DNA from: a bacterium | Lineage (GTDB): Bacteria; CLD3; SB21 | Assembly (NCBI GenBank): GCA_013360215.1 | Contig: JABWCP010000005.1 | Coordinates: 62,001-126,000 of the forward strand | Length of the DNA: 64,000 nt | Direction: 5' to 3' | Shown: piece after piece, positions 31,025 to 44,930 of the stretch | Layout: each line of letters opens with the position of its first letter | How positions within the stretch are numbered: the first letter of the stretch is position 1 | Notes under the pieces: generated by a model | The model's database searches: none | What the model saw: only the letters and a program-made list of their open reading frames with translations | Told to the model about the DNA's origin: nothing | Position numbers and translations under genes: made by a program

Positions 31025-31849
31025 TTGGAAAAATATTTTCTTTTCAGTATTGATCTCGAAGACGTTCGTTTTTGGATGACCGAAGGCAAAAAGTACCGCG
31101 AACGCGTCCCGGCCATGACGGAGCGTTATCTGAAATTTTTGGCCCAACATCGCATGACGTGCACTTTTTTCGTCGTGGGCGATGTCGCAGAAGCCTACCC
31201 GTCCCTAATCCGCGAAATCTATTCCGCAGGGCATGAAATTGCTTGCCATACGCATCGGCACATACCTCTTGACCAACAAACACCGGAAACATTTCGCGAT
31301 GACCTGCTTCGCAACATGGACGGACTTCACAAAACGGGCGTGGAGACCCTGAACGGATTTCGCGCACCTATTTTTTCGTTGACCAAAAAAACACAATGGG
31401 CTTATGAAATTCTCATCGAGCAGGGTTTTACGTATTCCAGTTCAGTACTGCCTGCGACCAATCCCTTGTACGGTTGGCCGGAATTTGGAGCGGCCTTTCG
31501 CCGAATGCATGATCGCATCTGGGAATTGCCGATCACTCTTTTTCCTTCGCGTTTTATTTCCGTCCCATGTGCGGGTGGTTTGTATTTTCGCACATTGCCT
31601 TTGTGGATGACGGCGCGCGCCTTTCGTCATCACTGGAATCAATCACGCCCGGTGCTCAGCTATTTTCATCCTTATGATATTGACACCGAGCAGGAGCATT
31701 TCATGCATCCGGGCTTAAAAGACAACCGGTTTTATAACTGGGTGATGTATCAAAACCGCGGCACGATGCTTGATAAAATAGATACTATCCTTGCCGACGG
31801 GGCAACAATTATTCCTTATCGTGATTATATCAGCCGGCATCTTCAATGA
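31025..31849 (+). CDS. Polysaccharide deacetylase (NodB family)
   Basis: A 274-residue NodB-homology protein without a signal peptide, so cytoplasmic or peripheral. The catalytic and metal residues are visible: FSIDLED with Asp10, TCTFFVVGDVAE, and the HEIACHTHRH motif supplying the metal histidines H75 and H79. Later pieces (GFRAPIFS, Y-F-H-P-Y-D-I) complete the fold. The variant resembles the PEP-CTERM/exopolysaccharide type that removes N-acetyl groups from glycans. The start is TTG; no strong Shine-Dalgarno is present. It opens the cluster of ACP and acyl genes on the same strand and may supply a free amino sugar for acylation. Confidence 0.82.
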   Translation: MEKYFLFSIDLEDVRFWMTEGKKYRERVPAMTERYLKFLAQHRMTCTFFVVGDVAEAYPSLIREIYSAGHEIACHTHRHIPLDQQTPETFRDDLLRNMDGLHKTGVETLNGFRAPIFSLTKKTQWAYEILIEQGFTYSSSVLPATNPLYGWPEFGAAFRRMHDRIWELPITLFPSRFISVPCAGGLYFRTLPLWMTARAFRHHWNQSRPVLSYFHPYDIDTEQEHFMHPGLKDNRFYNWVMYQNRGTMLDKIDTILADGATIIPYRDYISRHLQ

Positions 31850-31929
31850 CTATAATCGTTCATTGAAAAAGCCGCTCAAAATACGTATGATAGGTTTCCG
31901 TTTTTCAGTTTAGCAATATTGGAGTTTGA

Positions 31930-32229
31930 ATGAATACCGAACAGGTTTTAAACGTTATCCAGGAGTCGTTTGACAGTCTTACGCGCAGCGGGTTGATCGC
32001 TTCGCAAGTACAGGTAACACCGGATCTTGTAATTCTCGGCAATGGATCACCACTGGATTCGATGGCTTTTGTTACATTGTTTACCGATTTGGAAGAACGC
32101 ATCGCGACGGCTTCCGGCAAAGACATCTTTCTTGTGTTAGATGAAATCGAAGGTTTTAATATTAATAACCCGTTTCTGTCAGCCGAAACCATAGCCGGCT
32201 ACATCGTCGGCTTGATTCAAAAAGGATAA
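31930..32229 (+). CDS. Acyl carrier protein 1
   Basis: A 99-residue acidic helical protein with the phosphopantetheine site L-D-S-M, Ser44 being the attachment residue. It is longer and less canonical than the fatty-acid ACP (usually about 78 residues, DSL), so it is probably a specialised carrier. A GGAG element sits upstream of the ATG. The SDR gene starts 4 bases after its stop. It is expected to carry an acyl intermediate for the neighbouring KAS III and reductases. Confidence 0.8.
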   Translation: MNTEQVLNVIQESFDSLTRSGLIASQVQVTPDLVILGNGSPLDSMAFVTLFTDLEERIATASGKDIFLVLDEIEGFNINNPFLSAETIAGYIVGLIQKG

Positions 32230-32233
32230 CATC

Positions 32234-32938
32234 ATGGCTACGCCGGTTATGATCATCACCGGTACCAGCAAAGGTATCGGCAAAGGATTAGCAGAATATT
32301 TTCTAAATAAAGGATACCGTGTTTTCGGATGCAGCCGAAGCGAGGCGACGATCACACATGCCGCTTATCATCACACAGCTTTGGATGTGAGTAATGAATC
32401 CGCCGTACGGCTATGGATTCGCACGGTGAAAAAAGAAGGCGGTCGTATTGATGTTTTGGTTTGCAATGCCGGTTTGGTCGAATCGGCGCTCCAGATGACG
32501 GTCACGCCCGGCGATGTACTCGAAGCCTATCTCAAGACCAATGTGGCCGGCACGTACTACGTATGCCGTGAGACAGCCAAGACCATGTTGCTGCAGAAAC
32601 AAGGTCGTATCATCACGATTTCCTCTATCATGACGCGCCTTCATGCGCCCGGTACATCCGTATATTCGGCCACCAAAAGTGCAATCGAACAAATGACCAA
32701 AGTACTTGCCCGTGAAATGGCACCGCTCGGAATTACTTGCAACGTCGTCGCGCCTTCGATGTCGCCGACGGATGCGGCTAAATCGTTTGGCCCGGAATGG
32801 GAAAAAAATATGTTAGCCCAGCAGACCATACAGCGTCCTATCACCACAGACGAAATCGCCAATGTGATCTCATTTTATGCCGCGCCCGAAAGCGCCTGCA
32901 TCACAGGCCAAGTCACTTATATGGGTCTTGTGGACTGA
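32234..32938 (+). CDS. Short-chain dehydrogenase/reductase (FabG-like)
   Basis: A 234-residue classical SDR. It has the cofactor motif TGTSKGIG at the N-terminus, CNAG in the middle, an S-S-I segment before the catalytic Y-S-A-T-K (Tyr and Lys), and the VAPS loop. Length and layout fit 3-oxoacyl-ACP reductases (FabG), which use NADPH to reduce 3-ketoacyl-ACP. It is sandwiched between an ACP gene and a metallo-hydrolase gene, so reduction of an ACP-bound intermediate is likely. Confidence 0.85.
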   Translation: MATPVMIITGTSKGIGKGLAEYFLNKGYRVFGCSRSEATITHAAYHHTALDVSNESAVRLWIRTVKKEGGRIDVLVCNAGLVESALQMTVTPGDVLEAYLKTNVAGTYYVCRETAKTMLLQKQGRIITISSIMTRLHAPGTSVYSATKSAIEQMTKVLAREMAPLGITCNVVAPSMSPTDAAKSFGPEWEKNMLAQQTIQRPITTDEIANVISFYAAPESACITGQVTYMGLVD

Positions 32939-32963
32939 CCTTGGACGAAAGCGCGAATACGGC

Positions 32964-33659
32964 ATGGAAGGCATTTACGAATATATATTAGACGGTTTTA
33001 AAATCACGGAAGTCGTGACGGATCCGCTGTGGAAAGAAAATTGTTATCTTATCACAAGTGCATCCGGCGAACAAGCGTTGATTGATCCCGGTTATGATGC
33101 CGATCGTTTAGCGGATCTGATTTCCCAAAACGGGGACCGCGGACTGACTTGGGTTTTGCTGACCCACGCCCATCATGATCATGTGGGCGCTGTAACTCCG
33201 ATTTGTCGTATGTTTTCCATTCCGGCCTATTTGCATAAAGATGACCATAAATTAATACGGCATGCACCGATGTATGCGATTCGTTTCGGCCGTCAACCCA
33301 TTCCGATGCCGCAGCCGGTCAATTTTTTTGAGACGCCGCACGTATTTGAACTGGGTGCCCTCGCCCTACGCGCACTGCATGTGCCGGGCCACACCAAAGG
33401 CGGCGCGGCGTTCGTATTGGGTGACGCCCTTTTTACGGGCGATACACTAATGCACAAACATGTCGGGAGAGCGGATTTACCGGGCAGCGACATGACTATG
33501 CTGAAACAGTCCGTGGATAAACTGCTGTCCGAACATCACGATACGGCACGTATTTTTGCAGGTCACGGAAAACCATGGACCATCGGTGAAGCGCGCGAAT
33601 GGTGGGCATCGGCAAAAAATGAACCCGGCGTACATGATCATTTTGATACATTTGCTTAA
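32964..33659 (+). CDS. MBL-fold hydrolase (glyoxalase II-like)
   Basis: About 231 residues from ATG 32964; an open frame runs upstream inside the SDR gene but is not needed for the fold. The metal-binding HAHHDH motif, a later VPGHTKGG, a LFTGDTL aspartate and the terminal FAGHG histidine define the glyoxalase II branch of the metallo-beta-lactamase superfamily, whose members often cleave thioesters. Within an ACP cluster a thioesterase-like release or editing role is a reasonable inference, but the sequence alone does not prove it. The Shine-Dalgarno is poor. Confidence 0.78.
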   Translation: MEGIYEYILDGFKITEVVTDPLWKENCYLITSASGEQALIDPGYDADRLADLISQNGDRGLTWVLLTHAHHDHVGAVTPICRMFSIPAYLHKDDHKLIRHAPMYAIRFGRQPIPMPQPVNFFETPHVFELGALALRALHVPGHTKGGAAFVLGDALFTGDTLMHKHVGRADLPGSDMTMLKQSVDKLLSEHHDTARIFAGHGKPWTIGEAREWWASAKNEPGVHDHFDTFA

Positions 33660-33679
33660 CGTAACACGATAAAATATTC

Positions 33680-34663
33680 ATGGGTATAGGCATTACCGGC
33701 GTAGGAAAATATATTCCTTCCAAAGAAATCACCAATGAGCAGGTCGAAGCGTGGACCGGAGTATCGGCCGCCGATATTATTTCTAAAATCGGCGTTACCA
33801 AACGATTTGTCGTCGAAGCGCACGAAACCGCATCGGGCATGTCCGTCGAAGCGGCCCGACAAGCCATGGTTATGGCGGGTATCACTGCCGATCAAATCGG
33901 CCTGATTATTTGTGCGACCTTCACCGGAGATTATCTGTGTCCGGCGATGGCATGCCGCGTGCAAGAGCAACTCGGCGCTAAAAATGCGGGCGCTTACGAT
34001 GTTATGGCCAATTGCACCGGCTTCCAAATCGGCTTGGCCAATGCGGCCGATCGCATGACCCTGGATTCTTCGATAGCCTATGCTCTCGTGATCGGTACTG
34101 CGCTGCAATCCCGTTTTATCAACTGGAAAGACCCCAATTCGGCTATTTATTTTAGTGACGGCGCCGGTGCAGCAATACTTGCGCGTGTACCGGAAGGATA
34201 TGGTGTACTCGCCTCGGATATTATGGCCAACGGCAAAGTGTACGACGCCGTGCGCGTTCGCGGCGGCGGATCAAGCTACCCACTGCGAACGGAGAATGTA
34301 AACGATGTACTTCCGTATTTCGAATTAAACGGCCTGGAAGTATGGAAACAGGTGGTGCAATTTCAACCCCGCGTCATCATGCGTGTGCTTGAAAAAATTT
34401 CCAAAAAAACCGATGCCGTCGATTTTTTTATTTTTCATCAGGCTAATCTTCGGTTAATCGAATTTCTCATGGCCAAGATGAAGCATCCCATGCATAAAAC
34501 GCAGACCAATGTGGAAACCATAGGCAATACCGGCGAAGCCTCGATGGCTATCGCGCTTTGCGATGCCGTACTTGCCGGCAAATTGCAACGCGATCAATTG
34601 GTCGTGATTTCCGGCGTCGGTGCCGGATTTATTTTCGGCGCGACAGTTCTGCGCTGGTACTAA
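33680..34663 (+). CDS. 3-Oxoacyl-ACP synthase III (FabH-like)
   Basis: A 327-residue KAS III with an intact triad: Cys112 in MANCTGF, His253 in FHQANLR and Asn283 in GNTGEAS. The Cys position and the 30-residue His-Asn spacing match E. coli FabH. The usual GNTSAAS is changed to GNTGEAS, which may alter the substrate pocket. KAS III condenses an acyl thioester with a carrier-bound extender. There is no KAS I/II in this cluster, so it probably performs a single or specialised condensation. A 50-base gap separates it from the MaoC-SDR fusion. Confidence 0.88.
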   Translation: MGIGITGVGKYIPSKEITNEQVEAWTGVSAADIISKIGVTKRFVVEAHETASGMSVEAARQAMVMAGITADQIGLIICATFTGDYLCPAMACRVQEQLGAKNAGAYDVMANCTGFQIGLANAADRMTLDSSIAYALVIGTALQSRFINWKDPNSAIYFSDGAGAAILARVPEGYGVLASDIMANGKVYDAVRVRGGGSSYPLRTENVNDVLPYFELNGLEVWKQVVQFQPRVIMRVLEKISKKTDAVDFFIFHQANLRLIEFLMAKMKHPMHKTQTNVETIGNTGEASMAIALCDAVLAGKLQRDQLVVISGVGAGFIFGATVLRWY

Positions 34664-34713
34664 TAAAAAACGTGCGCTCTGATTTATTTTGATTAACTTA
34701 CCCTTAAAAAAAC

Positions 34714-35901
34714 ATGCCCGACTACACACAGATACAAATCGGCGACAGCGCTGAAATTCGCCACACGATCACGGCAAGCGACATTGAAAAATTTGTCGCT
34801 CTGACCGGCGATGATAACAAAATGCATGTGGATGAAAACTTCGCCGGCCGCACCTCATTTAAAAAACCGGTCGTACACGGCATGCTCGGAGCATCCTTTA
34901 TTTCAACAGTAATAGGCACCAAACTTCCGGGTGACGGTGCATTGTGGTTTTCTCAAAGTTTGGAATTTCTACTGCCGGTCCGTATCGGAGACGAGATCAC
35001 CGTTCGCGCTGAAGTCCTGCGTAAAATAGATGCCGAACAAATCATCGAATTGCAAACGGATATCATCAATCAGCACAAACAAAAAGTCACCACCGGGAAA
35101 GCCAAAGTCAAAGTGATCGCTCAGGAAAAACCTTCCGTAGTTGAAGAAACAACCGTGAGAAAGAAAGTGGCGCTGATCATCGGGGCTACCGGAGGTATCG
35201 GTCAAGCCACATGTCGTATGCTTGCAAAACAAGGTTTTGATGTCGCTGTACATTATTTTTCCAACGAAAAAAGAGCTTTCGATCTTGTGGCTTCTGTTAA
35301 AAACGAAGGTCGCGCAGCACATGCATTTAAAGCAGATATTTTCAAACCGGAAGATATTCAACATTTGGCCGAAGATGTAACACGGAAACTCGGGACCGTA
35401 ACGGTTTTGGTCAATGCGGCTACGGTGAAAATACCGGCCATCAAGTGGGCGTCGGTCGCATGGGATGATATCACCCAACAGTGGGACATCAATGTGCGGG
35501 CATCATTTTACCTCTGCAAAGGCATCATCCCGCTGATGGAAAAGCAAAAGTACGGCAAGATCATTTTGCTAACTACGATGTACACGGAAAGTACACCGCC
35601 GGCTGAACTCATGGGTTATGTTACTGCCAAATATGCGCTCAACGGATTTGCCAAAGCGTTGGCGGTAGAAATGGCGCCAAAAAATATTACAGTAAATCTC
35701 GTTTCGCCCGGCATGACCGATACGGAACTGGTAGCCGACGTACCTGAAAAAGTAAAACTATTGAACGCCATGAAAGCACCGATGAAACGGCTTGCCCAAT
35801 CCGAAGACGTCGCCGGCGCTATCGCTTACCTGGCGTCCGATGCGGCAGATTATATCACCGGAGAGACGATCCGCGTCAATGGCGGTCAAACGATGTTATG
35901 A
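34714..35901 (+). CDS. MaoC-like hydratase fused to FabG-like SDR
   Basis: A 395-residue two-domain enzyme. Residues 1-140 are a MaoC/R-hydratase hotdog domain with the catalytic loop A-L-T-G-D-D-N-x-M-H-V-D and the helix VVHGM. Residues 150-395 are an SDR with GATGGIG, an N-A-A motif, the active-site Y-V-T-A-K and a C-terminal ITGETIRVNGG, typical of FabG. The fusion links a reductase and a dehydratase that act on successive intermediates: ketoacyl to 3-hydroxyacyl to enoyl. Its stop overlaps the next ATG by 4 bases (ATGA), so translation is coupled to the FkbH gene. Confidence 0.87.
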   Translation: MPDYTQIQIGDSAEIRHTITASDIEKFVALTGDDNKMHVDENFAGRTSFKKPVVHGMLGASFISTVIGTKLPGDGALWFSQSLEFLLPVRIGDEITVRAEVLRKIDAEQIIELQTDIINQHKQKVTTGKAKVKVIAQEKPSVVEETTVRKKVALIIGATGGIGQATCRMLAKQGFDVAVHYFSNEKRAFDLVASVKNEGRAAHAFKADIFKPEDIQHLAEDVTRKLGTVTVLVNAATVKIPAIKWASVAWDDITQQWDINVRASFYLCKGIIPLMEKQKYGKIILLTTMYTESTPPAELMGYVTAKYALNGFAKALAVEMAPKNITVNLVSPGMTDTELVADVPEKVKLLNAMKAPMKRLAQSEDVAGAIAYLASDAADYITGETIRVNGGQTML

Positions 35902-37679
35902 TGATCCCCGAACGCCTTACAGACATCACGCTTCCCGATACGCTTTCGGAAACCATTGCTCTGGTAAATCATCTCGACCATTTAGAAAAAAAACCGGAGC
36001 AATCCGTACGCATTCATATTTTGCGTAATTTTACGATCGAAGGCATTGAACCTTTTCTCAAGTTTTATCACTACCAATCCGGCATACGCCCTGAAATCAG
36101 TTTCGGGAATTACGACAATGTCCGGCAGGAATTGTTAGATAAAAATTCCTCGTTGTATCAGCGCCATCCGGACATCGTCGTGCTCGGTCTCGTACTTGAG
36201 ACTTTGGATACCAACCTGCGTACATTCGGATGGACTGCAGACCGCGTCATATCGGAAATCGAATCGTTGCTGGATACGGCTTTACAAAACACACAAGCAT
36301 TGCTTGCCGTTAACACATTCGTGCCGCCTTGGGATTCCGAATGGGGCATGTACCGATCACCGGACGCCGCGGAACGTTTTGAAGAAGTACAACGAATAAA
36401 CCGAAAGATCCGTGAACGCGTGCGTCGCGATCCGATGCGGCTCTATCTGATGGACTGGGAGCGCTATCTTATTCGCCTGGGTGAAGAAGCGGCTATGGAT
36501 TATCGTTTTTGGTACACGTCCAAGGCACCTTTTAAAAAAGATTTTATGTCTGCGTATGCCTTCGATATCGCCAAACTCAGCCGCGGATTAAAAGGTAAAA
36601 CCAAAAAATGCCTCGTTCTTGATTGCGACAACACCCTTTGGGGTGGGATTATCGGCGAAGACGGCGTGTCGGGTATTAAACTGGACCGCGACAGTTTTCC
36701 CGGACGCGTGTATCGCGACTTCCAGCTTAATGCGCTCGCTTTGTATGAGCGTGGTATTCTTCTTACGCTCTGCAGTAAAAACAACGAGGCCGACGTGTGG
36801 GAAGTTTTTGATCATCATCCGGATATGGCGCTTCGGCGCGAACATATCGCGGCTTGGCGTATCAACTGGACCGATAAAGCAACGAATATTCGTTCCCTCG
36901 CGGAGGAACTGAATATCGGTCTCGACAGTTTTGTTTTTGTAGATGACAGCCCCGCCGAATGCGAGCTTGTCCGAACGATGATCCCGGATGTCACCGTGCT
37001 TCAGGTTCCTCAAAAATTATACACCTATCCGCCATTTGTGATACGATCCGGTTTTTTTGATGCGTTGCAGGTAAGCTCAGAAGACAAAAATCGCACGCGC
37101 ATGATGCACGAAGAATCCATGCGACGCGTCGAAGAAGCACGCTATACTTCCATTGATGATTATTTAGCCTCCCTTCAATTGTACGCTACCATCCACGAAG
37201 CCACAACCGATGAGATACCGCGCGTGGCGCAGCTGACGCAAAAGACCAATCAATTCAATGTTACCACACGGCGTTATTCCGAAGCACAAATCACGGCTTT
37301 TGCTGAAAACCCGGATGCTTCGGTATGGACTATGCGTGCCGGCGATAAATTCGGTGATTTCGGTTTGACGGCGGTTATCATCGTGACGCGTAACGGCGAT
37401 ACGGCCGAGATGGACTCTTTTTTACTCAGTTGCCGCATACTCGGACGCAAACTGGAAACGGCATTTGTTCGGCACGTCATGGCGGCACTCACACCGCGCT
37501 GGAGTATACGCACATGGCAAGCGTACTACATACCGACTAAAAAGAATGGTCAAACTGAAAAATTTTGGGACAGTTTCGGCTTCCGACCGACGCCACAAGC
37601 GGATCGAAGTGTGAAATATACGATAGACGCGTCGGCACTGGATACGACACCCATTCCGTTTATTTCTTACAGGAGTTAA
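35898..37679 (+). CDS. FkbH-type HAD-IIIC protein
   Basis: A 593-residue FkbH-like protein. Residues 1-220 form an N-terminal SGNH/Rossmann-like region. The HAD-IIIC domain begins at about 238 with the nucleophile motif LDCDNTLWGG (Asp242, Asp244) and continues through LLTLCSKNNE, TDKATNI and FVDDSPAEC. The C-terminal region (about 420-590) is GNAT-like, with DSFLLSCRILGR. In polyketide and tetronate pathways such enzymes take 1,3-bisphosphoglycerate, dephosphorylate it and load a glyceryl unit onto an ACP. The next gene is an ACP starting 1 base after its stop, which supports the same role here. The 600-residue form also occurs in surface-polysaccharide loci. Confidence 0.85.
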   Translation: MMIPERLTDITLPDTLSETIALVNHLDHLEKKPEQSVRIHILRNFTIEGIEPFLKFYHYQSGIRPEISFGNYDNVRQELLDKNSSLYQRHPDIVVLGLVLETLDTNLRTFGWTADRVISEIESLLDTALQNTQALLAVNTFVPPWDSEWGMYRSPDAAERFEEVQRINRKIRERVRRDPMRLYLMDWERYLIRLGEEAAMDYRFWYTSKAPFKKDFMSAYAFDIAKLSRGLKGKTKKCLVLDCDNTLWGGIIGEDGVSGIKLDRDSFPGRVYRDFQLNALALYERGILLTLCSKNNEADVWEVFDHHPDMALRREHIAAWRINWTDKATNIRSLAEELNIGLDSFVFVDDSPAECELVRTMIPDVTVLQVPQKLYTYPPFVIRSGFFDALQVSSEDKNRTRMMHEESMRRVEEARYTSIDDYLASLQLYATIHEATTDEIPRVAQLTQKTNQFNVTTRRYSEAQITAFAENPDASVWTMRAGDKFGDFGLTAVIIVTRNGDTAEMDSFLLSCRILGRKLETAFVRHVMAALTPRWSIRTWQAYYIPTKKNGQTEKFWDSFGFRPTPQADRSVKYTIDASALDTTPIPFISYRS

Positions 37680-37680
37680 T

Positions 37681-37926
37681 ATGGCTAAGACGACCCATGA
37701 CATAAAAAAAGTTATGGCGCGGATTTTTGAAGTAGACCCCTCATCGCTGCACGACACTATACGTCAGGATGAAGTTGAAAACTGGGACAGTTTACGGCAC
37801 ATGAACCTCATACTCGGTCTCGAAGAAGAATTTGGCGTAGAATTTACCCCCGAACAAAGCGTCGAGATACTGAGTTTGCCGCTCATCAAAGTTACACTAC
37901 AAGAACTGGGAGTTACTTTTTCGTAA
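37681..37926 (+). CDS. Acyl carrier protein 2
   Basis: An 81-residue ACP of normal length with W-D-S-L-R-H, Ser37 being the phosphopantetheine site. It begins 1 base after the FkbH stop and ends 4 bases before the ligase gene. That makes it the likely carrier for whatever the FkbH protein or the ligase loads. It is clearly distinct from the longer ACP at 31930, so the cluster handles two carrier-bound substrates. Confidence 0.88.
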   Translation: MAKTTHDIKKVMARIFEVDPSSLHDTIRQDEVENWDSLRHMNLILGLEEEFGVEFTPEQSVEILSLPLIKVTLQELGVTFS

Positions 37927-37930
37927 TCGT

Positions 37931-39292
37931 ATGCAGTCCATTCAAACCATACTCCGACGACTCACAGAAGCACCCGACAAGGAAGCGCTGTACTGGAACG
38001 ATCGTTTTTTTTCTTATGCGGAATTAAACACCGCTATAGCCGCGTGGGAACCTGTTTTGAAAGACAACGGGGTCGGCCGCGGCACTGTTTGTGCTTTTTT
38101 AGGTGATTATTCACCGCAGACGGCGGCACTCATTTTTGCGTTGATGAAAGTCAAAGCTGTGATGGTTCCTTTTACATATGCGATCCAACGCGAAATCGAA
38201 GAATTCAAAAACATTGCCGGTGTCGAATGTATGTTCCGTTTTGCTCCGGACGACACATGGACCTTTGAAAGGTACAATGCCGTTCCGCGGAACGCGTTGA
38301 TTGAGGATTTTATGCAGCGCGACGTACCGGGGCTGATCGTATTTTCAAGCGGATCAACCGGCAAACCTAAGGGTATTTTGCAGGATTGCGAACGTGTCAT
38401 GCATAAATTTGTCGAAAAAAGACCGGGATGGCGTACACTTCTTTTTTTGATGATGGATCACTTTGGGGGATTTAACACATTTTTATCATCGTTTGCTTAC
38501 GGAGGTACGGCCGTTTGTCTTCCGGATCGCAATCCTGATACCGTGTGCCGCATCATACAAACTTCACGTGCGACACTCTTGCCCACGACACCGACATTTA
38601 TCAACCTTCTTTTGGCATCACGCGTGTACGGGCAATACGATCTGTCTTCGGTCAAAATGATTACCTATGGTACGGAAGTCATGAATGCCGCAACTCTTTC
38701 GAAAGTCCGCGATATTTTTCCTAATGCGCAGATCAAACAAACTTACGGTCTTTCCGAACTCGGCGTGTTGCGCTCGCAATCTGAAAGTGATGATTCCGTG
38801 TGGGTCAAAATCGGAGGTGCCGGTTTTGAAGTAAAAATCGTCGATAATATTTTGTGGATTCGGTCCGAAGCCAATATGGTCGGCTACCTCAATGCGCCCA
38901 GCCCTTTTGACAACGAAGGATGGATGTGTACCGGCGATCAAGTTGAGGTGCGCGGTGAATACATGCGTATCCTCGGTCGCAAATCGGAAATGATCAATGT
39001 CGGCGGTCAAAAAGTTTTCCCCGTCGAAGTCGAGAACGTTTTAATGGAAGCCGGTAATGTACGCGAAGTCAGCGTTTTCGCGAAACCCCATCCGATCATG
39101 GGTCACGTCGTGCACGCCAAAATCACCCTGCATGAACCGGAAGACACACTTCTTGCTACGGAACGTCTTCGCAAATTTTGTCTCGAGCGTATGGCAAAAT
39201 ACAAAGTACCGGTTAAATTTGTTTTTGTAGATAACAACGAACAACATAACGCGCGATTCAAAAAAATACGCCGCGATTCGGAGTCTTCCTAG
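37931..39292 (+). CDS. AMP-dependent acyl-CoA/ACP ligase
   Basis: A 453-residue adenylating enzyme of the ANL superfamily. The A3 loop VFSSGSTGKPKG lies at about 136-148. YGLSELG (A5), CTGDQVEV (A7) and LGRKSEMINVGGQKVFP (A8 hinge) follow, and the C-terminal catalytic lysine is in RFKKIRR. It is shorter than most acyl-CoA synthetases (500-600), mainly at the N-terminus. It probably activates a carboxylic acid as an acyl-AMP and passes it to the adjacent ACP or CoA. The stop overlaps the next GTG start by one base. Confidence 0.86.
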   Translation: MQSIQTILRRLTEAPDKEALYWNDRFFSYAELNTAIAAWEPVLKDNGVGRGTVCAFLGDYSPQTAALIFALMKVKAVMVPFTYAIQREIEEFKNIAGVECMFRFAPDDTWTFERYNAVPRNALIEDFMQRDVPGLIVFSSGSTGKPKGILQDCERVMHKFVEKRPGWRTLLFLMMDHFGGFNTFLSSFAYGGTAVCLPDRNPDTVCRIIQTSRATLLPTTPTFINLLLASRVYGQYDLSSVKMITYGTEVMNAATLSKVRDIFPNAQIKQTYGLSELGVLRSQSESDDSVWVKIGGAGFEVKIVDNILWIRSEANMVGYLNAPSPFDNEGWMCTGDQVEVRGEYMRILGRKSEMINVGGQKVFPVEVENVLMEAGNVREVSVFAKPHPIMGHVVHAKITLHEPEDTLLATERLRKFCLERMAKYKVPVKFVFVDNNEQHNARFKKIRRDSESS

Positions 39293-39813
39293 TGAGTTCA
39301 TTCTTCCTGCGCCCGTCTTTGTTGAGCGATGAAACGGCCATTTATAATCTTTATAACCGGGTTGCCGCTATACGCGGAGGACTTGCTCGTGAAACGCATG
39401 AAGTCACTTCCGATTATGTTCACCATTTTCTATCACGAAGCATCGCAACCGGTTTATCCATCATCGCAATCAATGAGAACGAATGCCTTGGTGAAATACA
39501 CGCCTACAGACCGGGCATTAAAGTATTTGATCATGTTTTGAGTGAACTCACGATCGCCGTTGACCCGAAGGCACAAGGTCTGGGTATCGGAAAACAACTC
39601 TTTACGACTTTTTTAGACACCGTCCGCACAACCATGCCGAACATATTGCGCGTAGAACTCATTGCACGCGAGAGTAATTCTAAAGCCATACGCATGTACG
39701 AAAAACTCGGATTCGTGACCGAGGGTCGTTTTGAAAATCGTATTCGCAGTGTGGATGGTGGTTTGGAAGCGGATATACCGATGGCTTGGATGAATCCTAA
39801 CTACAAAGGTTGA
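39292..39813 (+). CDS. GNAT N-acetyltransferase 1
   Basis: A 173-residue GNAT-fold protein starting at GTG 39292, one base overlapping the ligase stop. The acyl-CoA binding loop is Q-G-L-G-I-G-K-Q, with downstream N-S-K-A-I-R-M-Y-E-K-L-G-F typical of RimI/PhnO-like members. The family transfers acyl groups from CoA (sometimes ACP) to amines. As the last gene tightly packed in the acyl cluster, it is the best candidate for final transfer of the product to an amino group, though a general acetyltransferase is possible. Confidence 0.82.
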   Translation: MSSFFLRPSLLSDETAIYNLYNRVAAIRGGLARETHEVTSDYVHHFLSRSIATGLSIIAINENECLGEIHAYRPGIKVFDHVLSELTIAVDPKAQGLGIGKQLFTTFLDTVRTTMPNILRVELIARESNSKAIRMYEKLGFVTEGRFENRIRSVDGGLEADIPMAWMNPNYKG

Positions 39814-39819
39814 CCGTTC

Positions 39820-40866
39820 GTGAAAAAAGTAAAACTATGGAACGCTTTAATTTTTTTTAAACCAACCGCTGTCCTCTTTTTTTCCATTTTACTTTCTGCT
39901 TGTACACCACCGCCACCGATAGGCCCTTTGCCCGGCAAAACTCCGGATTCATTTCGTATCGCTTTCGGTTCTTGCAATAAAACATTTCTTCCCCAGCCGC
40001 TATGGAATCCGATCAGGACTGCCCAACCCGATCTTTGGATGTGGCTCGGTGACATCGTTTACGGTGATCGCGGCGGAATTGACACCATACGATGGATGTA
40101 CAATTTTCAAAAAAAACATCCGGACTACGCCGCGTTACGACAAACCGTACCGGTGATCGGAATTTGGGACGATCACGATTACGGTGTCAATGACGGCGGC
40201 AGCGAATATGAACACAAAAAAGAAACCCAACGTCTATTGATGGATTTTTTGGATGAACCCGCTGAAAGCCCTCGGCGCTTGCAAGAAGGTATTTATACGT
40301 CGTATCGCTACGACAAGCTCAATACCCGCATAAAGCTCATACTTCTTGATGAACGTTCATTCCGTGAAGAGCCGCGTGCCAACAAGGATATACTCGGCGA
40401 TAAACAATGGCAATGGTTGTACGGCGAGCTCTTCGGAGATACGACGGATATCACATTGATCGCTTCTTCCAGTCAAATTATCCCCAACGATAATTACGCG
40501 TTCAATGAAGTGTGGCAAGATTATCCGGCTTCAAGGGACAAAATTTTATCCTGGCTCAAAACGGTGCCGGGCACCGTATTCATTGTGAGCGGTGACCGAC
40601 ACTATGCCGAAATATCTCAAATCGAAAACGGCCGAAATAATGGCCGATCGACATTGACGGAGCTTACGTCCAGCGGATTGACACATACCAAAAATTATAC
40701 GCTTTATAGTTTACTGCCGATCGAACCTAATTCACACCGCGTCGGTGATTTTTACGGCGGACTGAATTTTGGCGTGATTGACATTGATGCCGTACAACGT
40801 AAAGTTTTCGGTTACGTGTGCGATCACGAATCCATGATACGTTTACAACTGGTTATCGATTACTAA
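39820..40866 (+). CDS. PhoD-like metallophosphatase lipoprotein
   Basis: 348 residues, GTG start with AAAGG 10 bases upstream. The N-terminus is a lipoprotein signal with lipobox LLSAC followed by a Thr/Pro-rich linker. The PhoD/alkaline phosphatase D metal motifs are visible: FGSCN, WLGDIVYGD, IWDDHDYGVND and VSGDRHYAE. Such enzymes hydrolyse phosphomonoesters or diesters outside the cytoplasm. It follows the GNAT gene by 6 bases. Whether it belongs to the acyl pathway or merely shares the transcript is unclear. Confidence 0.85.
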   Translation: MKKVKLWNALIFFKPTAVLFFSILLSACTPPPPIGPLPGKTPDSFRIAFGSCNKTFLPQPLWNPIRTAQPDLWMWLGDIVYGDRGGIDTIRWMYNFQKKHPDYAALRQTVPVIGIWDDHDYGVNDGGSEYEHKKETQRLLMDFLDEPAESPRRLQEGIYTSYRYDKLNTRIKLILLDERSFREEPRANKDILGDKQWQWLYGELFGDTTDITLIASSSQIIPNDNYAFNEVWQDYPASRDKILSWLKTVPGTVFIVSGDRHYAEISQIENGRNNGRSTLTELTSSGLTHTKNYTLYSLLPIEPNSHRVGDFYGGLNFGVIDIDAVQRKVFGYVCDHESMIRLQLVIDY

Positions 40867-40885
40867 AAACACTTCCGCAGGTTCC

Positions 40886-42601
40886 ATGTTACGACCTAAA
40901 TTACTGGATACGCTGAAAGACTATAATCGCGAACGCTTTATTGCGGATCTGAGCGCAGGCACTATAGTCGGCGTGGTAGCTTTACCGCTCGCCATAGCTT
41001 TTGCTATCGCATCGGGCGTTTCACCGGAACGCGGTTTATACACAGCGATCATCGCCGGTTTTTTGATTTCATTTTTAAGCGGCAGCAAAGTTCAGATCGG
41101 CGGCCCGACCGGGGCTTTCGTCGTGATCGTATATGGTATTGTAGAAAAATACGGCATTGACGGATTGATCATCGCCACGATCATGGCCGGGGTGATATTG
41201 ATTCTAATGGGGCTTGCTAAATTTGGCGGCCTTATCAAATATATTCCGCATCCGATCATCACCGGTTTTACATCCGGTATCGCCGTTATCATCTTCTCAA
41301 CACAAATTCGAGATTTTTTCGGCTTAACAATAGACAAAGTACCCGGTGATTTTGTAGAGAAATGGGCATCGTATATTGAACATGGATCCTCCATCAATTT
41401 TTATGCGTTTGGTATCGGCATCGCTACCCTATTAATTATCGTTTTTTGGTCACGCTTTTCACAAAAAATCCCGGGCTCATTGGCGGCTTTGATCATTTCG
41501 ACGTGTGTCGTTTATTTTTTTCAATTGCCCGTAGATACGATTCATACCCGCTTTGGTGAAATTCCGTCTTCATTACCTGCGCCTATTTTCCCCAATATTC
41601 AATGGTCTACGATCACAGCCCTCATTATGCCAGCGACGACGATCGCTTTACTGGGCGCGATCGAATCATTGCTCTGTGCTGTTGTTGCCGACGGTATGAT
41701 CGGTGACCGACATCGCTCCAATATGGAACTCATCGCGCAAGGCCTCGCCAATATAGTTACACCTTTTTTCGGAGGCATCCCTGCGACGGGCGCCATCGCA
41801 CGTACGGCGACCAATATCCGCAACGGAGGCCGGACACCGATCGCCGGTATTATCCACGCGCTGATCTTACTGATGATCTTGTTGATTTTTGGGAAATGGG
41901 CAGCTCTTATTCCTTTGCCTTGTCTGGCAGCCATCCTGATTTACGTTGCGTATAATATGAGTGAACATACAGCGTTTATGGCTATTATTCGCGGCCCTCG
42001 AACGGATGTGATCGTTTTGCTTACTACGTTTGCGCTGACCGTATTGGTTGATCTTACCGTGGCCATCGAAATCGGGATGATCCTCGCCGCATTTTTATTT
42101 ATGAAGCAGATGGCCGACGTTACACGTATTCAGGTGATCAAGTCTGATTTGGATGATCATGACGAGCCCCCCGACACACAAGCTGTCAAGGACAAACGCA
42201 TACCCCAGGGTGTGCAGGTTTTTGAAATCAACGGTCCGTTCTTTTTCGGCTCGGTTTATAAATTTCAGGAACACTTTGATTTTGCCAGACGGCACACGCG
42301 CGTATTGATTCTTCGCATGCGTGCCGTGCCCTATGTTGACGCGGGAGGGCTTCACGCGTTACGTGAAATGATGAATCATTGCCGAAAAGATAAAGTTTAT
42401 TTCTTGATCGCCGAGATACATACGCAACCGCTCATCGCCGTCGAGCAATCCGGCCTGATGCAAACCATGGGCGAAGATTATTATTTCGGCAATCTTGACG
42501 AAGCCCTGGCGGCAGCCGGCGAATTGATAAAAGCACAACCGGCTGAAAACACGGAATCTTTGCATCGTTATATGCATGAAATCCGTGAAGGCCAAAAGTA
42601 A
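40886..42601 (+). CDS. SulP-family anion transporter
   Basis: A 571-residue SLC26/SulP protein: about 10-14 transmembrane helices (residues 20-415) with the family stretch AGTIVGVVALPLAIAFAIASGV and the motif QIGGPTGAFVVI, and a cytoplasmic STAS domain at about 440-560 (VPYVDAGGLHALREM). Members carry sulfate, bicarbonate, dicarboxylates or other anions, and the substrate cannot be read from this sequence. It lies 20 bases after the phosphatase gene on the same strand. Confidence 0.9.
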   Translation: MLRPKLLDTLKDYNRERFIADLSAGTIVGVVALPLAIAFAIASGVSPERGLYTAIIAGFLISFLSGSKVQIGGPTGAFVVIVYGIVEKYGIDGLIIATIMAGVILILMGLAKFGGLIKYIPHPIITGFTSGIAVIIFSTQIRDFFGLTIDKVPGDFVEKWASYIEHGSSINFYAFGIGIATLLIIVFWSRFSQKIPGSLAALIISTCVVYFFQLPVDTIHTRFGEIPSSLPAPIFPNIQWSTITALIMPATTIALLGAIESLLCAVVADGMIGDRHRSNMELIAQGLANIVTPFFGGIPATGAIARTATNIRNGGRTPIAGIIHALILLMILLIFGKWAALIPLPCLAAILIYVAYNMSEHTAFMAIIRGPRTDVIVLLTTFALTVLVDLTVAIEIGMILAAFLFMKQMADVTRIQVIKSDLDDHDEPPDTQAVKDKRIPQGVQVFEINGPFFFGSVYKFQEHFDFARRHTRVLILRMRAVPYVDAGGLHALREMMNHCRKDKVYFLIAEIHTQPLIAVEQSGLMQTMGEDYYFGNLDEALAAAGELIKAQPAENTESLHRYMHEIREGQK

Positions 42602-42860: not shown

Positions 42861-44930
42861 ATGACAATCGAAGATGCTCTAATAATACTCGAAATTAATG
42901 AACCACACCCCAATCTTAATCAGATCAAGTCCGCTTATCGTGTTCTTGCTAGAAAATATCATCCGGATAAAACCGGAACAAAAGATGCATCAAAATTCAT
43001 CTTAATCAATGCAGCATATGAGCTACTGAAAGATCACTTTGCTTTTGGATATTCTTCCTATGAACACGAAAAATGTGACGCAGAATTTGAAACAGAAAGT
43101 GATATATCTGCGCGATTGCGCGAAATTGAGAAAGCTTTTGAATTATTGCAACGAAGTTATGAAGAGTATCACAATGCGGTCTTTGCAAATATAGAGAATC
43201 AAATAATTGAAGTGCTTAATAGCTACACAACCAATTCTCAACTTAAGAATCATTTTCCTAGTTATTTTTCTGACGTTACAACGAATGGGTTACAAAATAT
43301 CGTTGTTTGGTTTAATGAGAATTTTGCAAGCATGGCAAAGTCTTATGACACTTGGATTAACGGATATTTGAAATCTGTATACGAGCAGCTTCAGGCTCAA
43401 GAGACTGCGCTATGGCGAAAATCACCCTTTTTAAGAAAAACTATTAAAATTAGTTTTTTTGTTAGTTTGATTAGCGTTCCAATTGGAATCTATTTAAATA
43501 ACAATCTACTACTTTTGTTGTTTCCAATTTACTTTGGAATACCCGCCGGCATAATTAAGTATTTCCGTTCAGTCAGATCGAGCTTTAGTATAGAGGAAAG
43601 AGTTATTAGATTAGATCATAATAAATTCAGGCTCTCTCCAGAACAAGCACAACTTTATGTAGGTGAAGAGGTATCTCAAAAAGAAACTTCTCAACTTGGA
43701 GCTGTAAGCGGTGCAGCTCTTGGATTGGCTGTTGGCGGACCGATTGGAGCTGTCATCGGAGGCGCGCTGGGAGGCCTTTTCGGTAGCATGTTTGGTGAGT
43801 CACTTGATGAACTTAAAAACAAAGTATATTCTCAGGCAAACATCAGACTTGTTGAGATCAATTCATTTATTTTAGAAAGATTGAACAATGAGATACCAAA
43901 AATTTATTCCGAATTAATAAATTCAGTAAAGGAAAACTACTCAAAGAATAAAAAAAACGCCGTTAATCTTTTGTTGACATACAATACTACTTATAATAAG
44001 ACGCATGCCTATAAAATCGAAAAAGACCACCCAATGATAAATATTGACTTTACGGACATGATATATGTAGTCTTACTTGCCTGTTTTTTCTTATCATTCA
44101 CAGTATATATTTCTGAGAAGAATAGTTTACGCAAGCTATCATTAACAGCACCATCAACCGTTGATGTTAGAAATAATCTCCAAAATGAAGTAATGAGTTT
44201 CATTTCTACCCATCTTAATTTTGAAGCCAAACAAGAAATTGAATCATATATAAATGATTACGAAGAGGTTGTTGATTATTATTCAACATCAAAAGTGACA
44301 AAAAATCAAATCAAGCAACTCAAACTGGCATTTTACAAAAAATGGCCGATGGTTTCATACAACCTTGATCGCAAAACGTTTCGAATTAATGAAGAAGGTG
44401 GTCAAATTCGAATATTCTTCAATTATCATTTTATTGTTGGAAATGACATTGAAAAAAGGGAGGGGGTAGCCGAAAATGAAATGGAAATTTATTTCAAGAA
44501 TGGAGTAATAAAAATCATAGCCGAAGAACAAAAAATATTACACACTGAGAACAAAACTACAAAGAACGAAAAGTACATTGAACCTATCGATAATTACTCA
44601 ATTAACTTTCGAGATCCAAAAGAGGTAATACGAGCATTTTATCTCTTTGTTGAAAAAAAGAAACCAGGTGAAGCTGTTTTGCTTTATGCTGAGGCTAAGA
44701 AAGAAAAAGTAAATAAAAAACTTATTGATGCTGTATCTACAGACACAGAATACTACAAAATAGAATCAATGATTGTTAACTACGAAAACGATGTTGAATG
44801 TGAAGTTAGCGTTTATCTTTTTCATAAAAAACATAACGCTCAAGAAGAGTACTGGGCTATTAATGTCAAATTAATTAAAGAATCTGATTTATGGAAAATT
44901 TGGAGCACTCCGGGAAAACAAATTTATTGA
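42861..44930 (+). CDS. J-domain membrane protein with glycine-zipper segment
   Basis: A 689-residue protein with an N-terminal J domain (about 1-60) including the Hsp70-activating HPD at 34-36. A helical region (about 75-185) follows, then two hydrophobic segments (about 194-235), a glycine-rich amphipathic stretch at 279-312 (G-x3-G-x3-G spacing, a glycine zipper), another helix near 396-414, and a charged C-terminal region (about 430-689) that I do not recognise. The C-terminal half has an N-T-F2-like feel, unproven. Codons are visibly AT-rich compared with both neighbours (the line at 43201 is 17 G+C in 60), suggesting acquisition. A Shine-Dalgarno GAGGGA sits upstream. It is probably a membrane co-chaperone recruiting DnaK; a defence role is speculative. 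Confidence 0.65.
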   Translation: MTIEDALIILEINEPHPNLNQIKSAYRVLARKYHPDKTGTKDASKFILINAAYELLKDHFAFGYSSYEHEKCDAEFETESDISARLREIEKAFELLQRSYEEYHNAVFANIENQIIEVLNSYTTNSQLKNHFPSYFSDVTTNGLQNIVVWFNENFASMAKSYDTWINGYLKSVYEQLQAQETALWRKSPFLRKTIKISFFVSLISVPIGIYLNNNLLLLLFPIYFGIPAGIIKYFRSVRSSFSIEERVIRLDHNKFRLSPEQAQLYVGEEVSQKETSQLGAVSGAALGLAVGGPIGAVIGGALGGLFGSMFGESLDELKNKVYSQANIRLVEINSFILERLNNEIPKIYSELINSVKENYSKNKKNAVNLLLTYNTTYNKTHAYKIEKDHPMINIDFTDMIYVVLLACFFLSFTVYISEKNSLRKLSLTAPSTVDVRNNLQNEVMSFISTHLNFEAKQEIESYINDYEEVVDYYSTSKVTKNQIKQLKLAFYKKWPMVSYNLDRKTFRINEEGGQIRIFFNYHFIVGNDIEKREGVAENEMEIYFKNGVIKIIAEEQKILHTENKTTKNEKYIEPIDNYSINFRDPKEVIRAFYLFVEKKKPGEAVLLYAEAKKEKVNKKLIDAVSTDTEYYKIESMIVNYENDVECEVSVYLFHKKHNAQEEYWAINVKLIKESDLWKIWSTPGKQIY

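Follow-up and report, generated by a model that had tools for sequence, protein, structure and literature searches.

Gene content of the cluster

We analyzed a window of 64,000 nucleotides from a bacterium of the GTDB lineage CLD3; SB21 (assembly GCA_013360215.1, contig JABWCP010000005.1, positions 62,001 to 126,000). Ten open reading frames (ORFs) lie on its + strand at 31025-39813, separated by intergenic gaps of -4 to +80 bp. The middle eight form the cassette with which this report is concerned; the two flanking genes encode a deacetylase and an acyltransferase. The ten genes are as follows.

31025-31849, +: DUF3473/NodB-type polysaccharide deacetylase, probably cytosolic; adjoins the cassette, not a member (PF01522, PF11959)
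31930-32229, +: ACP1, divergent acyl carrier protein (ACP), Ser44 in DSM (DS motif, AF2 model, fold matches)
32234-32938, +: short-chain dehydrogenase/reductase (SDR), 3-oxoacyl-ACP reductase-like, YSATK (PF13561/PF00106; orthologues in cassettes)
32964-33659, +: metallo-beta-lactamase (MBL)-fold hydrolase, putative acyl-thioester hydrolase, HxHxDH (PF00753)
33680-34663, +: cassette beta-ketoacyl-ACP synthase III (KAS III), Cys-His-Asn triad (NF006829, above cut-off)
34714-35901, +: MaoC dehydratase-SDR fusion, MaoC-SDR (PF01575 and PF13561)
35898-37679, +: FkbH, glyceryl transferase/phosphatase of HAD-IIIC type, DxDNTLW (TIGR01686)
37681-37926, +: ACP2, FkbH-associated acyl carrier protein, WDSLRHMNL (PF00550, weak)
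37931-39292, +: AMP-forming acyl ligase (PF00501, PF13193; 38-47% identity in cassettes)
39292-39813, +: GNAT N-acyltransferase, probable acyl transferase (PF00583; 1-nt overlap with the ligase stop)

The widest gap, 80 bp, separates the deacetylase from ACP1, and all later gaps measure -4 to 50 bp. These data bear out the original prediction, made from the sequence alone, of ten tightly packed same-strand genes: every ORF was found at its place and on its strand. Its domain calls (deacetylase, SDR, MBL, KAS III, MaoC plus SDR, FkbH, ligase, and GNAT) hold in Pfam and NCBIfam, and, as it also claimed, the cluster contains no KAS I/II, polyketide synthase (PKS), or nonribosomal peptide synthetase gene. 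The MBL gene most likely starts at 32964 rather than at 32877, because the longer ORF overlaps the SDR gene.

FkbH scores 273.7 bits against TIGR01686 (cut-off, 146.65), which places it in this family, and its HAD motif (DCDNT/DxDNTLW) is invariant across the cassettes described below. ACP2 falls slightly below the cut-off of the PP-binding family PF00550 (20.3 versus 20.8 bits), and a homologue accompanies FkbH at nearly all loci examined. ACP1 matched no Pfam or NCBIfam family. Its DS[ML] serine is invariant in ten cassettes, and its AlphaFold model is helical (mean confidence score pLDDT, 92), with a long helix that begins at the serine of the DS motif. The best structural matches are mostly carrier proteins, none of them below an E value of 0.001 and with probabilities of up to 0.94. 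Taken together, the invariant motif, the predicted fold, and its matches identify ACP1 as a carrier protein.

Conservation and distribution of the cassette

We defined the cassette as the collinear series ACP1-SDR-MBL-KAS III-MaoC-SDR-FkbH-ACP2-ligase (31930-39292), which the window carries in full. We took the 80 closest FkbH loci from the genome collection and used all ten window proteins as queries against them. The cassette KAS III is present in 11 of them, and a twelfth locus (L130) came from a Bacteroidota sample. These 12 further loci hold the cassette, mostly in the exact order, and belong to Pseudomonadota, Actinomycetota, Acidobacteriota, Bacteroidota, and Bdellovibrionota; counting the window's own phylum, it spans six phyla. 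All eight genes follow the window's order in Blastococcus (L030), Massilia (L036), a member of the Burkholderiales (L046), Modestobacter (L048), and a member of the Acidobacteriales (L064). Massilia sp. Leaf139 and Modestobacter sp. VKM Ac-2985 are carriers from the environment that are available in culture. L130, from the same phylum as the Bacteroidia locus L015, has a complete cassette with an inserted methyltransferase gene. The others depart from the full order: the MBL gene is missing from Phenylobacterium (L056) and MaoC-SDR from L015, the Roseateles (L014) genes form two blocks that have changed places, and contig ends interrupt three cassettes (L009, L023, and L045). Since this order recurs across phyla, it lies far beyond chance. 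The catalytic residues of KAS III, FkbH, and the carrier proteins are kept, as are the metal ligands of MBL and the catalytic motifs of MaoC-SDR wherever these proteins are present.

The cassette is rare, occurring in about 1 genome in 300-400. Beyond the seed genomes, true matches numbered 0 of 399 in Burkholderiales, 1 of 396 in Bacteroidota, and 0 of 291 in Bdellovibrionota; one Burkholderiales match (G234, 38%; locus L129) was rejected, being a housekeeping fab cluster with FabH. Within the window's phylum, an FkbH search found the cassette in none of eight sampled relatives. Among plasmids, tblastn with the KAS III query gave matches of at most 38% identity, and the FkbH query returned generic FkbH loci; the six of these that were inspected contained no cassette. 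We also looked in the relatives for an empty insertion site and found none, as the synteny around the PhoD-like gene downstream of the cluster is not kept. The cassette has apparently spread horizontally, because the Actinomycetota cassettes nest within a group from other phyla and the window KAS III shares 70% identity with its counterpart in an Acidovorax metagenome-assembled genome (MAG). It is thus a real and rare element that appears to be mobile.

The cassette KAS III is distinct from housekeeping FabH

Each of the 12 genomes searched yielded two KAS III matches, one of the cassette type (41-70% identity to the window's protein) and one other (26-37%); therefore, the cassette KAS III is not the housekeeping FabH. 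In agreement, the window protein scores 243.8 bits against the FabH profile TIGR00747, below the cut-off of 292.1 bits, and another contig of the same genome (C15) carries, as read by eye, an apparent FabH-FabD-FabG-ACP-FabF cluster. The cassette KAS IIIs are monophyletic, with support of 100/100, and their Cys-His-Asn triad is invariant in 13 cassettes; the Actinomycetota sequences fall inside a group made up mainly of Pseudomonadota and Acidobacteriota. The original prediction had named two findings that would count against it, genes not conserved together and a housekeeping KAS III. Both were checked: the genes recur together in 12 further loci, and the KAS III forms its own clade beside a second KAS III in each genome.

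A different KAS III family (22-27% identity), forming a separate clade, also lies beside FkbH and an ACP, mostly in Bacteroidales/Prevotellaceae loci (L022, L026, L029, L034, L039, L049, L057, L065, L066, L072, L082, L083, and L079, the last an archaeal MAG).

Most cassettes elsewhere lie near amino-sugar genes

FdtA is encoded at 7 of 11 cassette loci and at 1 of the 69 other FkbH loci. When L130 and L131, an extension of the Roseateles locus, are added, the count rises to 9 of 12, and two of the three cassette loci without FdtA are contigs under 6.2 kb. A sugar-type GNAT shows a similar distribution (7/11 versus 5/69). Pfam confirms FdtA, DegT aminotransferases, an Acetyltransf_3 GNAT, GT2 glycosyltransferases, and a flippase as neighbors of the cassette. 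In L130, a single strand reads FdtA-FdtA-ACP1-SDR-MBL-KAS III-methyltransferase-MaoC-SDR-FkbH-ACP2-ligase-GNAT-FdtB. A NeuB-family gene is also part of the Roseateles locus, and a DUF2172/DUF4910 protein that we take to be of the Cj1295 type lies beside its cassette; inspected by eye, the locus further contains pse-type genes, a giant repeat protein, and type I secretion genes.

Giant repeat proteins with LxxLxTxQLxxL-like repeats adjoin the cassettes of two Burkholderiales (L131, 47-8252; L046, 17925-21620), together with apparent type I secretion genes. They are possible glycosylation targets.

FdtA and FdtB make dTDP-3-amino-3,6-dideoxyhexoses. The simplest reading is therefore that the cassette supplies an N-acyl group, which the GNAT attaches. 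At four loci without the cassette KAS III (L006, L012, L042, and L043), MaoC-SDR, FkbH, and ACP2 form a minimal core of their own, often with a methyltransferase gene nearby. Two of these are nonulosonic-acid loci, L006 and L012 carrying NeuB- and NeuC-type genes and L012 a NeuA-type gene as well. This neighborhood favors an N-acyl group on a surface sugar rather than a tetronate or some other free metabolite, and lends good support to the custom N-acyl group that the original prediction had offered as one of its options. We put the probability that the cassette makes a custom N-acyl group for surface amino sugars at roughly 0.7; its product is probably a dedicated short hydroxylated acyl-ACP. 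Many bacterial surface sugars bear odd N-acyl groups without an assigned biosynthesis, and for one such group the cassette suggests a genetic origin that can be tested. It would also extend FkbH chemistry, so far described chiefly for polyketides, to the decoration of glycans, and its genes could serve as a marker set to predict such acyl decoration from genomes.

Comparison with known FkbH and N-acylation systems

Definitions of the tetronate and methoxymalonyl pathways were taken from PMC7489565 and compared with the window by gene content. The cluster resembles the tetronate glycerate-utilization operons (Mad7/8/16/17/18, Agg, and Rk) in having FkbH, an ACP, and a FabH-like protein, and the original prediction had accordingly considered a tetronate-type pathway. 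KAS III would then condense the glyceryl-ACP made by FkbH with an acyl-ACP, the product being released as a small secreted molecule, and the ligase could load the starter. Yet only those three of the required five operon members are recognized. The ten genes include neither an Agg4-type acyltransferase nor an Agg5-type dehydratase, and no KAS I/II or PKS is available to build an acyl chain. The KAS III differs as well: with its full Cys-His-Asn triad (FHQAN), it is 24% identical to the KAS III of L099, which lacks the histidine (PPQLS) and is tetronate-like by gene content only. Because the neighbors at other cassettes are moreover surface-sugar genes, we consider a tetronate or other secreted metabolite improbable. 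L099, on a plasmid of Streptomyces sp. NBC_00826, carries KAS III-FkbH-ACP with a ketosynthase gene, an acyl-AMP ligase, and an acyl-CoA dehydrogenase.

FkbH and an ACP also begin the route to methoxymalonyl-ACP (PMC7489565), and 7 of 11 other cassettes include a methyltransferase, so that the cassette might supply a hydroxymalonyl- or methoxymalonyl-type extender on ACP2 for KAS III. The window's cluster, however, lacks the FkbI/FkbK-type dehydrogenases (acyl-CoA dehydrogenase and FkbK-type dehydrogenase) and the O-methyltransferase families of that pathway, which makes this the least probable of the alternatives considered.

The nearest known systems are instead the flagellin locus of Campylobacter jejuni and the viosamine island of Pseudomonas syringae. 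In the former, cj1303, cj1304, cj1307, and cj1308 presumably encode a KAS III, an ACP, a ligase, and an ACP, respectively. Like the cassette loci, cj1295-cj1308 places an FkbH gene within an amino-sugar glycosylation locus, and the Campylobacter product has a glyceroyl-derived N-acyl group. The original prediction knew of no characterized cluster with exactly this content, overlooking this related locus, in which cj1302 has an fkbH domain (PMC7099621) and whose flagellin carries a di-O-methylglyceroyl derivative of pseudaminic acid (Pse), Cj1295 being proposed to remove the N-acetyl group first (PMC3068675). The eight-gene cassette with its MaoC-SDR fusion and MBL is not described there, however, and the window has no adjoining Pse genes.

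In P. syringae, VioS, VioR, an ACP, and VioB make N-3-hydroxybutyryl viosamine, as established partly by mass spectrometry of mutants (PMC3927599). This island (vioA, vioM, vioT, vioS, vioB, vioR, and acp) likewise dedicates a KAS III, an SDR, and an ACP to the N-acyl group of a 6-deoxy amino sugar but has no FkbH, second ACP, ligase, MaoC, or MBL, and its acyl group is 3-hydroxybutyryl. The precedent of VioS/VioR (PMC3927599) suggests a further possibility, in which the KAS III/SDR/ACP1 arm makes a 3-hydroxybutyryl-type group and FkbH a separate glyceroyl-derived group for another position. The two ACPs and the separate occurrence of the MaoC-SDR/FkbH/ACP2 core fit such a division of labor. 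The joint occurrence of all eight genes, in a largely constant order, suggests a single product, and we regard two separate groups as unlikely, though less so than either the metabolite or the extender.

Flavobacterium psychrophilum wfpC-G offers a third parallel, with an O-antigen-specific ACP, two ketosynthases, a reductase, and an acyltransferase proposed for an N-acyl group, predicted to be 3,5-dihydroxyhexanoyl on Qui2NAc4N (PMC6519341); its function is predicted only, and no FkbH is reported. A search of a literature library found no paper joining FkbH with O-antigen.

A possible route to the acyl group

Starting from what the loci display (gene content and order, catalytic motifs, KAS III orthology, rarity, and the amino-sugar association), we infer what each enzyme does, what the acyl group looks like, and where it is attached. 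FkbH would transfer a D-glyceryl unit from 1,3-bisphosphoglycerate onto ACP2. MaoC-SDR probably acts directly on this product, since the three genes occur together even without the cassette KAS III. It would remove the 3-hydroxyl and then reduce, for example, glyceryl to lactyl; chemically, loss of the 3-hydroxyl from glyceryl-ACP would plausibly give the enol of pyruvyl, which reduction would turn into lactyl. KAS III, ACP1, and the SDR may then lengthen the unit by one C2 from malonyl and reduce it, while the MBL hydrolase may edit or release acyl groups and the ligase re-activate the acid. In the last step, a GNAT would pass the acyl group on to the amine of a sugar. Elsewhere this amine may come from FdtA/FdtB (dTDP-Fuc3N/Qui3N type) or lie on a nonulosonic acid; in the source genome, an amine on a different sugar may be exposed by the neighboring deacetylase and acylated anew by the GNAT. 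Taken as a whole, this would be a new route from a glycolytic intermediate through glyceryl-ACP, MaoC-SDR deoxygenation, and KAS III extension to an acyl group new to bacterial glycans; in the source genome, the resident deacetylase and a new GNAT would exchange N-acetyl for this group by a Nod-factor-like logic. We offer that full scheme only tentatively, as it is more likely wrong than right in this form.

The deacetylase, the GNAT, and the acceptor in the source genome

The deacetylase has the motifs IDLEDV, HTHRH, and RAPIFS. Five relatives from the same family, none with the cassette, encode orthologues with 57-59% identity, usually next to an Acetyltransf_9 GNAT protein. The deacetylase thus belongs to the resident genes, with the cassette lying beside it, and the deacetylase/acyltransferase pair is conserved in the family. 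In two relatives (L169, 8422-11066; L171, 8063-10707), the genes after the DUF3473 deacetylase encode an SDR and an Acetyltransf_9 protein, in that order. An assignment to the XrtA/exosortase deacetylases was rejected (TIGR03006, 184.7 versus 276.2 bits). The window GNAT is not of the type found in other cassettes and only weakly resembles (28%, 38 bits) a GNAT domain encoded in the nonulosonic-acid locus of Roseateles. Neither protein is encoded at any of the 12 other cassettes. Thus, the view of the pair as an integral part of the cluster is weakened: both genes adjoin the cassette, but neither accompanies it elsewhere, and the deacetylase occurs without it.

An acceptor sugar in the source genome was sought by family search. 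The FdtA/FdtB and Acetyltransf_3 GNAT neighbors, which are associated with cassettes but not universal, are missing from the window's cluster. Several points weigh against a role in N-acylation of a surface sugar here. No sugar-nucleotide or glycosyltransferase gene lies next to the cluster, FdtA is absent from the whole source genome, and the GNAT type of other cassettes has only 22%-identity matches there. The link of this cassette to a sugar is drawn by analogy with the other loci, the vertically inherited deacetylase may be unrelated to it, and FkbH could act on an acyl unit other than glyceryl. Several DegT aminotransferases are encoded in the source genome, some within a polysaccharide locus on C15, and point to candidate amino-sugar acceptors. 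Taking off an acetyl group, as proposed for Cj1295 in C. jejuni (PMC3068675), and then acylating the freed amine would achieve what FdtA/FdtB do elsewhere.

Transcription and downstream genes

Promoter matches in the window are at chance level (22 found, 20.3 expected), and a promoter-like site at 31863-31891, between the deacetylase and ACP1, is suggestive only. Downstream, genes for a PhoD-like lipoprotein and a SulP permease (39820-42601) start 6 and 19 bp past their preceding genes; therefore, the transcript may read on beyond the GNAT gene into them. Farther on, a DnaJ/glycine-zipper ORF (42861-44930) is compositionally foreign, with a GC content of 0.333 against a mean of 0.459 for genes outside the cluster.

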